Part shown: positions 13,637 through 14,445 of the stretch, in pieces
Layout of the letters: the number at the start of each line of letters is the position of its first letter
Position numbering within the stretch: position 1 is the stretch's first letter
Assembly: GCF_031348265.1 (NCBI RefSeq)
Contig: NZ_CP133771.1
Location: 4,216,001 to 4,280,000, forward strand
From: Streptomyces collinus
GTDB taxonomy: Bacteria > Actinomycetota > Actinomycetes > Streptomycetales > Streptomycetaceae
Direction of reading: 5' to 3'
Length of the DNA: 64,000 nt
Notes under the pieces: generated by a model
Database searches by the model: none
What the model was told of the DNA's origin: nothing
Seen by the model: only the letters and a program-made list of their open reading frames with translations
Program-made: the position numbers and the translations under genes

Positions 13637-13954
13637 GTGGCGCAGAAGGTCGTGGTCACTCTCTTTGACGACATCGACGGCTCGGAAGCGACGGAAACGA
13701 TCGCCTTCGGACTGGACGGCAAGTCGTACGAGATCGACCTGAGCGAAGTCAACGCCGGAGAACTGCGGCAGGCGCTCGCGCCCTACGTGGAGGCCGGCCG
13801 CAAGCGGTCCCGCTCGGGCAAGGCCTACCGGCAGACGGAGGTCGCCCCCGACCCGTCGGCCGTGCGCGCCTGGGCCCAGGCCAACAAGATGGAGGTCCCC
13901 GCGCGCGGGCGCATCCCCAAGAGGGTCTACGAGGCGTTCACCGCCGCGCAGTGA
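13637..13954 (+). CDS. lsrL: Lsr2-family nucleoid protein, LsrL-like
   Basis: A 105-residue Lsr2 family protein: an N-terminal oligomerisation domain (AQKVVVTLFDDIDGSEATE, then a beta-strand/helix pair to about residue 60), a basic linker, and a C-terminal DNA-binding helix pair with the A+T minor-groove motif ARGRIP near residue 95. Lsr2 proteins coat A+T-rich DNA and silence foreign and secondary-metabolite genes. Streptomyces carries two copies; the one beside purS is the LsrL paralogue. The GTG start is chosen because GAAGGGA precedes it and the family begins AQKVVV. An in-frame ATG at 13619 is less likely. Confidence 0.9.
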   Translation: MAQKVVVTLFDDIDGSEATETIAFGLDGKSYEIDLSEVNAGELRQALAPYVEAGRKRSRSGKAYRQTEVAPDPSAVRAWAQANKMEVPARGRIPKRVYEAFTAAQ

Positions 13955-14008: not shown

Positions 14009-14039
14009 TTGCGCAGCCCCGGGGCTGATCAGCTAGAGT
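14009..14039 (+). promoter_or_regulatory. Probable housekeeping-type promoter of the tRNA-Gly genes
   Basis: TTGCGC (14009-14014) and TAGAGT (14034-14039) are 19 bases apart and lie 50 bases before the first tRNA. They fit a vegetative sigma factor promoter moderately well. Confidence 0.45.
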
Positions 14040-14088
14040 CTGGAGCACGCCGAGGGGCGAGGCCGAAAGGCCCAGCTCACGGAAACAT

Positions 14089-14160
14089 GCGGGTGTAGTT
14101 CAGTAGTAGAACATCCCCCTTCCAGGGGGAAGGCGCAGTGTGCGATTCCTGTCACCCGCT
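14089..14160 (+). tRNA. tRNA-Gly(UCC), abnormal D- and T-loops
   Basis: The cloverleaf has a perfect 7-bp acceptor stem (GCGGGTG with CACCCGC), a GTTC/GAAC D stem, and a 5-bp anticodon stem with loop CTTCCAG, so the anticodon is TCC and the amino acid glycine. The D loop is AGTAGTA, with A where the first of the invariant GG should be. The T arm lacks GTTC; it reads GCAGT-GTGC-GATTC and pairs over only four of five positions. The neighbouring tRNA-Gly(GCC) has normal GG and GTTC. The changes affect exactly the bases that join the D and T loops. Similar losses are known in staphylococcal glycine tRNAs dedicated to cell-wall bridges. Confidence 0.9.
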
Positions 14161-14241: not shown

Positions 14242-14314
14242 GCGGACGTAGCTCAGTTGGTAGAGCGCAACCTTGCCAAGGTTGAGGTCGCGAGTTCGAA
14301 CCTCGTCGTCCGCT
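14242..14314 (+). tRNA. tRNA-Gly(GCC)
   Basis: Acceptor stem GCGGACG with CGTCCGC, D loop with GTTGGTA, anticodon loop TTGCCAA (anticodon GCC), and a normal T loop GTTCGAA. It is canonical throughout. It lies 81 bases after the abnormal tRNA-Gly(UCC) and is followed by a strong terminator. Confidence 0.96.
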
Positions 14315-14321
14315 CGGGAAT

Positions 14322-14353
14322 GAAGACCCCGGTCCATCAGGACCGGGGTCTTC
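14322..14353 (+). terminator. Terminator after tRNA-Gly
   Basis: GAAGACCCCGGTCC (14322-14335) pairs perfectly with 14340-14353 across an ATCA loop, followed by a T-rich stretch. Confidence 0.85.
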
Positions 14354-14445
14354 TTCGTGTTCCCGAGCGTTCGTCTGACATTTGTCATGCCGAATGATGA
14401 CACCGCGCACTGCTTCCGGGCCCGCACGGCCGGGACGCTTGAATC

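Follow-up and report, generated by a model that had tools for sequence, protein, structure and literature searches.

A conserved, redundant tRNA-Gly(UCC) of Streptomyces with a bulged T-stem and an A18/G55 elbow, and its possible use as a non-ribosomal glycine donor

The locus and the anatomy of its tRNA-Gly(UCC)

The window analysed here is a stretch of 64,000 nucleotides (C1:4216001-4280000) of a single-contig Streptomyces genome of 8.87 Mb. It contains a tRNA-Gly(UCC) gene, hereafter type 1, that cmscan assigns to the Rfam tRNA family with 53.5 bits, the cut-off being 29. No other Rfam family reached significance, and ARAGORN under default settings made no call at the gene. The position, the perfect acceptor stem and the UCC anticodon given in a preliminary description of this DNA were confirmed, as was the ordinary tRNA-Gly(GCC) gene 81 bases away (Table 1). 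The discriminator U73 (14160) is followed by CTG, and CCA is not encoded. A promoter-like element and a leader of about 45 nucleotides precede the gene, while a terminator-like inverted repeat was found after tRNA-Gly(GCC) and none immediately 3' of type 1. The closest neighbours are the Lsr2-family gene of Table 1 and a gene for an ABC transporter, and no Fem gene adjoins the locus.

Table 1. Features of the type 1 locus (window positions) and the type 2 gene (contig positions)
Feature	Position	Strand	Basis and remarks
Lsr2-family nucleoid protein gene	13637..13954	+	Pfam PF11774, PF23359; upstream neighbour
Promoter-like TTGCGC ... TAGAGT	14009..14039	+	Sequence comparison; conserved upstream of type 1 in other Streptomyces
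GGCC-GAAA-GGCC hairpin in leader	14061..14072	+	Retained in many orthologues
Type 1 tRNA-Gly(UCC)	14089..14160	+	Rfam RF00005 match, own-genome scan, orthologues
Type 1 D loop AGUAGUA	14102..14108	+	Sequence; A18 at 14105 (usual G18), G19 at 14106 retained
Type 1 anticodon UCC	14121..14123	+	Loop C32-U33-UCC-A37-G38
Possible competing hairpin GCGC-AGU-GUGC	14133..14143	+	Minimum-energy fold, pair counts
Type 1 T arm GCAG(U)G-UGCGAUU-CCUGU	14135..14152	+	Bulged U 14139, G55 14142, C56 14143
Ordinary tRNA-Gly(GCC)	14242..14314	+	81 bases 3' of type 1; two-gene pairing conserved
Terminator-like inverted repeat	14322..14356	+	Sequence; after tRNA-Gly(GCC)
Type 2 tRNA-Gly(UCC)-like gene (L058/L161)	C1:3332120-3332189	-	Genome scan

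The D loop reads A14-G-U-A18-G19-U-A, the sole change being at G18, and the T loop reads U54-G55-C56-G-A-U-U, with G55 replacing U55. The replacement of the first of G18-G19 by A and the GTGC in place of GTTC, both described before, are present; the other elbow partners, G19 and C56, are intact. Across the alignment of type 1 orthologues, U33, the anticodon and A37 are invariant. C32-G38 had been considered as a further anomaly and was dropped because tRNA-Pro(GGG) has C32-G38 too, while tRNA-Gly(GCC) and tRNA-Gly(CCC) have U32-A38. The glycine identity set (G1-C72, C2-G71, C35, C36 and U73) is present in type 1 and invariant among aligned orthologues, so that glycyl-tRNA synthetase should charge it, which we regard as likely.

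The T-stem had been reported to lack one pair. A plain five-base-pair stem indeed fails, with only 40% of cells pairing in 25 distinct sequences, but the arm is better read as carrying a bulged U14139, in which case all five pairs form (99.2% of cells), G49.U65, C50-G64 and A51-U63 among them. The U14139 was independently treated as an insertion by cmscan. Such a bulge is unique to type 1, the other 67 of the 68 tRNAs in the genome having an unbroken five-base-pair T-stem. Taken as a whole, the cloverleaf with the bulge has 99.6% of its cells paired in the 25 sequences, and compensated changes were found at 8 pairs, with 40 cells altered on both sides, a number reached in none of 500 shuffles. 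Given that this compensation, located in the D-stem and the anticodon-stem, exceeds that of the shuffles, the type 1 RNA is under selection. The T-stem itself is nearly invariant, its covariation being limited to pair 49-65 (G.U in Streptomyces, A-U in a few relatives) and to one orthologue (L214) in which the bulge position has shifted along with the stem sequence and pairing is retained.

Redundancy and conservation of type 1

Scanning of the genome gave 68 tRNA matches. The glycine tRNAs comprise three GCC genes, one CCC gene, one canonical UCC gene (C1:3022446), type 1 and a second unusual UCC-type gene, type 2. The possibility that type 1 is the sole UCC species, raised in the preliminary description, was ruled out by the canonical gene, which shares with it the anticodon, acceptor identity and discriminator, but has G18, U55, an unbroken T-stem and G51-C63. 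Type 1 is therefore spare for decoding and unneeded for GGA. A canonical UCC tRNA-Gly was present in nearly all of 25 genomes checked inside and next to the family. U54-U55-C56 occurs in 66 of the 68 tRNAs, the two exceptions being type 1 and type 2 (both UGC, both tRNA-Gly(UCC)-type), and all ordinary tRNA-Gly of the genome, among those listed, have G49.U65 and G51-C63.

Type 2 resembles type 1 in its GUGC T loop, A51-U63, glycine identity elements and UCC anticodon, and differs from it in having U37, a perfect T-stem, its own promoter-like -10 element and its own terminator-like repeat. Its U37 is the only pyrimidine at position 37 among the 68 tRNAs, and its anticodon loop has C32-G38. It looks more non-ribosomal than type 1, but its distribution is patchy: in the family sample it occurs in 26 of 160 genomes overall and in about half of the listed Streptomyces, in one to five scattered copies where present and with no shared neighbours of note found. 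Such patchiness rules type 2 out as a general wall donor. Actinobacteria bacterium OV450 (L269) and Streptomyces inusitatus (L308) have yet another kind of GUGC tRNA-Gly(UCC), the third, whose D loop is AACAGCA and whose acceptor is GCGCUGG.

Each of the 101 Streptomyces genomes searched has the type 1 locus followed by tRNA-Gly(GCC), with A18 and G55 together in 70 of the 70 type 1 sequences extracted from them; a G55 T arm was likewise found in 45 of 45 genomes of a second Streptomyces sample that overlaps the first. The two changes are thus fixed together throughout the genus and in most of the family, and the refuting case named in the preliminary description, a normal GG/GTTC in other Streptomyces, did not arise among the copies read. 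Most of the remaining genera of the family also have type 1, and two (g147 and g150) gave no match. After the exclusion of one unrelated tRNA-Gly(CCC) from the 123 loci read, the 122 orthologous copies divide into 115 with A18/G55 (including a 71-mer, L227, counted here though outside the tally), 7 with G18/U55 and none mixed, and G19 is retained in all of them. The G18/U55 copies belong to two deep genera (g138 and g141) in which the bulge is already there, and the elbow swap apparently came after the T-stem bulge. Two or three tandem type 1 copies occur in some genomes (G480:C9:294962-295267, G329:C15, G443:C7 and G502:C1), some with differing yet compensated anticodon stems.

No GUGC tRNA-Gly was seen among the matches listed from the non-Streptomyces genomes of a class sample, which included no non-Streptomyces genus of the family, and GUGC as a general actinobacterial trait was set aside. 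A plasmid search for the type 1 gene gave weak tRNA matches only.

The alignment indicates that the type 1 changes are conserved and no chance event, and conservation together with compensated stems rules out a local mutation. A decaying pseudogene would account for the low score and for the failure of ARAGORN defaults to find type 1; it is refuted by the conserved promoter-like element and leader, the compensatory stem changes and the family-wide invariant anticodon, and retains almost no probability. The anatomy, conservation and redundancy of type 1 are shown by these comparisons.

The T arm raises another possibility, in which U55G lets it refold to a GCRC-AGU-GUGC hairpin and type 1 acts as a switch or sensor instead of delivering glycine. 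The minimum-energy fold has this hairpin in place of the T arm, and its outer pairs form at columns 45-55 in 21 of 25 sequences and at 46-54 in 20 of 25, the failures of 46-54 being exactly the five U55 sequences; the hairpin is present in most G55 copies and complete in no U55 copy. However, tertiary contacts are not part of energy folding, the outer pair is missing from one G55 copy (L198), and the coupling to A18, which also holds in Patescibacteria that have no such hairpin, is better explained by a D-loop/T-loop contact. We consider a regulatory RNA quite improbable.

The A18/G55 elbow outside the Streptomycetaceae

Named genomes were scanned for tRNA-Gly-like genes with GGUGC. The wall tRNAs of Staphylococcus were recovered as a positive control, together with, unexpectedly, many genes from Patescibacteria (L251, L255, L258, L261, L266, L272, L285, L287, L290, L299, L304, L311, L324 and others). 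These resemble type 1 in the D loop (AGUAGUA or AGCAGUA) and in U54-G55-C56, but have no T-stem bulge and are usually the sole tRNA for their anticodon (GCC or UCC). In the 10 Patescibacteria genomes examined, A18 always occurs with G55, and G18 is accompanied by U55 or C55 (two letters at position 18 were not machine-readable). The A18/G55 gene is the sole tRNA-Gly found for its anticodon in 9 of the 10, as judged by a pattern-based search of genomes that are partly incomplete bins, and one genome has A18/G55 on all three tRNA-Gly isoacceptors. Some sister tRNA-Gly of Patescibacteria carry C55 together with G18. Lone GUGC tRNA-Gly-like genes were also seen in Agromyces humi (L268), a member of Planctomycetota (L288), a member of Clostridia (L303), Labilithrix (L312) and Prevotella (L323).

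Where it is the sole tRNA-Gly for its anticodon, the A18/G55 form must serve the ribosome in Patescibacteria. The swap alone therefore implies neither loss of the elbow nor avoidance of EF-Tu in Streptomyces, GUGC is not diagnostic of wall tRNAs, and the earlier view of A18/G55 as a wall hallmark is not supported. A review (PMC4810234) describes psi55 as universally conserved and the G19-C56 pair as a contact site of ribosomal protein L5. No description of an A18/G55 tRNA or of a Streptomyces wall tRNA was found in the papers searched. The S. lividans tRNA gene study of Sedlmeier et al. (1994, J Bacteriol) may have recorded type 1 earlier, so that priority may lie there.

These results bring forward a serious alternative, which we hold to be possible, that type 1 is a redundant but ordinary ribosomal tRNA-Gly(UCC) in which A18/G55 together with G19-C56 forms an alternative working elbow, the bulged U is tolerated, and the extra gene raises capacity or tunes the reading of GGA/GGG. 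That 9 of 10 Patescibacteria genomes have an A18/G55 tRNA-Gly as the sole one for its anticodon is consistent with it, as are the retention of U33, UCC and A37 throughout, the preservation of G19-C56 on the ribosome-contacted face (PMC4810234) and the pairing with an ordinary tRNA-Gly(GCC). On the other hand, the Patescibacteria tRNAs are without the T-stem bulge, which is unique in the Streptomyces genome, a canonical UCC tRNA is already there, and ordinary selection for decoding offers no motive for the fixation of a bulge together with two changes at the elbow.

A possible glycine donor compared with wall tRNAs

The reading that we tentatively place first, though we give it somewhat less than an even chance, is that type 1 is a weak-EF-Tu glycine donor, dual-use or mainly non-ribosomal, and most plausibly for FemX; it stands close to the redundant ribosomal alternative. 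Under this reading the Streptomycetaceae conserve a spare tRNA-Gly(UCC) that would be charged by glycyl-tRNA synthetase, as its identity elements suggest. Its T arm would have become bulged first, with the A18/G55 elbow gained later; the bulge and A51-U63 would make EF-Tu and the ribosome use the tRNA less; and the glycine it carries might, more speculatively, pass to a FemX-type transferase, which adds glycine to LL-Dap in the wall precursor. The change from G51-C63 to A51-U63 has been cited as weakening EF-Tu binding in S. aureus wall tRNAs (PMC4052509), and weaker use of type 1 by EF-Tu is plausible from the bulge and this pair. The FemX-type enzyme as acceptor is a guess.

For the donor reading speak the redundancy, the conservation, the unique T-stem bulge, A51-U63 instead of G51-C63, and the tandem copies in some species. 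Against it, type 1 still looks decodable from its retained G19-C56, U33, UCC and A37; Streptomyces copies retain G49.U65, a strong EF-Tu pair; codon-reading tRNA-Gly of Patescibacteria carry A18/G55; and GUGC tRNA-Gly is absent among the class-sample matches listed from other actinobacterial families. The genome encodes two FemAB-family proteins, in agreement with the FemX-like transferase expected earlier, and FemX/VanK of S. coelicolor has been cited as aminoacyl-tRNA-dependent (PMC4052509). However, FemAB was found in all 19 genomes checked, including those of the genera g150 and g147 that are without type 1, so FemX is not dependent on type 1, and the locus has no Fem gene beside it.

The glycine might also be delivered beyond the wall, either to specialised-metabolism transferases (FemX-like or GNAT) or to another tRNA-dependent enzyme. 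Streptomyces DhpK and Orf11 do use Gly-tRNA and resemble FemABX (PMC12945691), but such pathways are strain-specific while type 1 is in every Streptomyces searched, and the genes closest to it are those for an Lsr2 protein and an ABC transporter, which makes this improbable.

The proposal of a dual-use or wall-dedicated tRNA is thus partly supported: redundancy, conservation and a T-stem that is unusual where EF-Tu reads it stand, and A18/G55 falls away as a hallmark. Its strongest form, a family-wide dedicated non-ribosomal glycine tRNA for the peptidoglycan cross-bridge, shaped by the bulge and then by the coupled A18/G55 swap, with wall tRNAs having arisen a second time and independently of those in Staphylococcus, we consider rather unlikely. 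The partition of glycyl-tRNA between wall and ribosome is best known in Staphylococcus, and type 1 represents a genus-wide, single-gene, deletable candidate with its canonical twin as a control. Strict coupling of the A18/G55 swap in two unrelated groups shows that the G18-psi55 elbow contact, described as universally conserved, has a natural alternative, and GUGC alone is an unsafe mark of wall tRNAs.

In S. aureus, wall tRNAs have UU or CU at positions 18-19, and A49-U65 and A51-U63 replace strong EF-Tu pairs (PMC4052509); one of them is charged and poorly used by EF-Tu (PMC8007984). The Staphylococcus wall-tRNA sequences that we fetched have C37, the D loop AACUUUUA and an unbulged T-stem. 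A tRNA-Gly(UCC) of Intestinimonas butyriciproducens (L250) also has this D loop, C37 and GUGC in a genome with a normal UCC tRNA, and may be a wall-type tRNA from beyond the genus Staphylococcus. The likeness of type 1 to the staphylococcal species, claimed at the outset, holds in part: like the NP tRNA-Gly(UCC) of Staphylococcus it is an extra UCC species, redundant with a normal one, with a GUGC T arm and A51-U63 (PMC4052509, PMC8007984). By contrast, the staphylococcal wall tRNA loses both G18 and G19, whereas type 1 retains G19; it has C37 and an unbulged T-stem, whereas type 1 has the purine A37 and the bulged U; and type 1 in Streptomyces keeps G49.U65 in place of the S. aureus A49-U65 (PMC4052509). 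In its anticodon loop, type 2 is closer to Staphylococcus than type 1 is (U37 versus A37).
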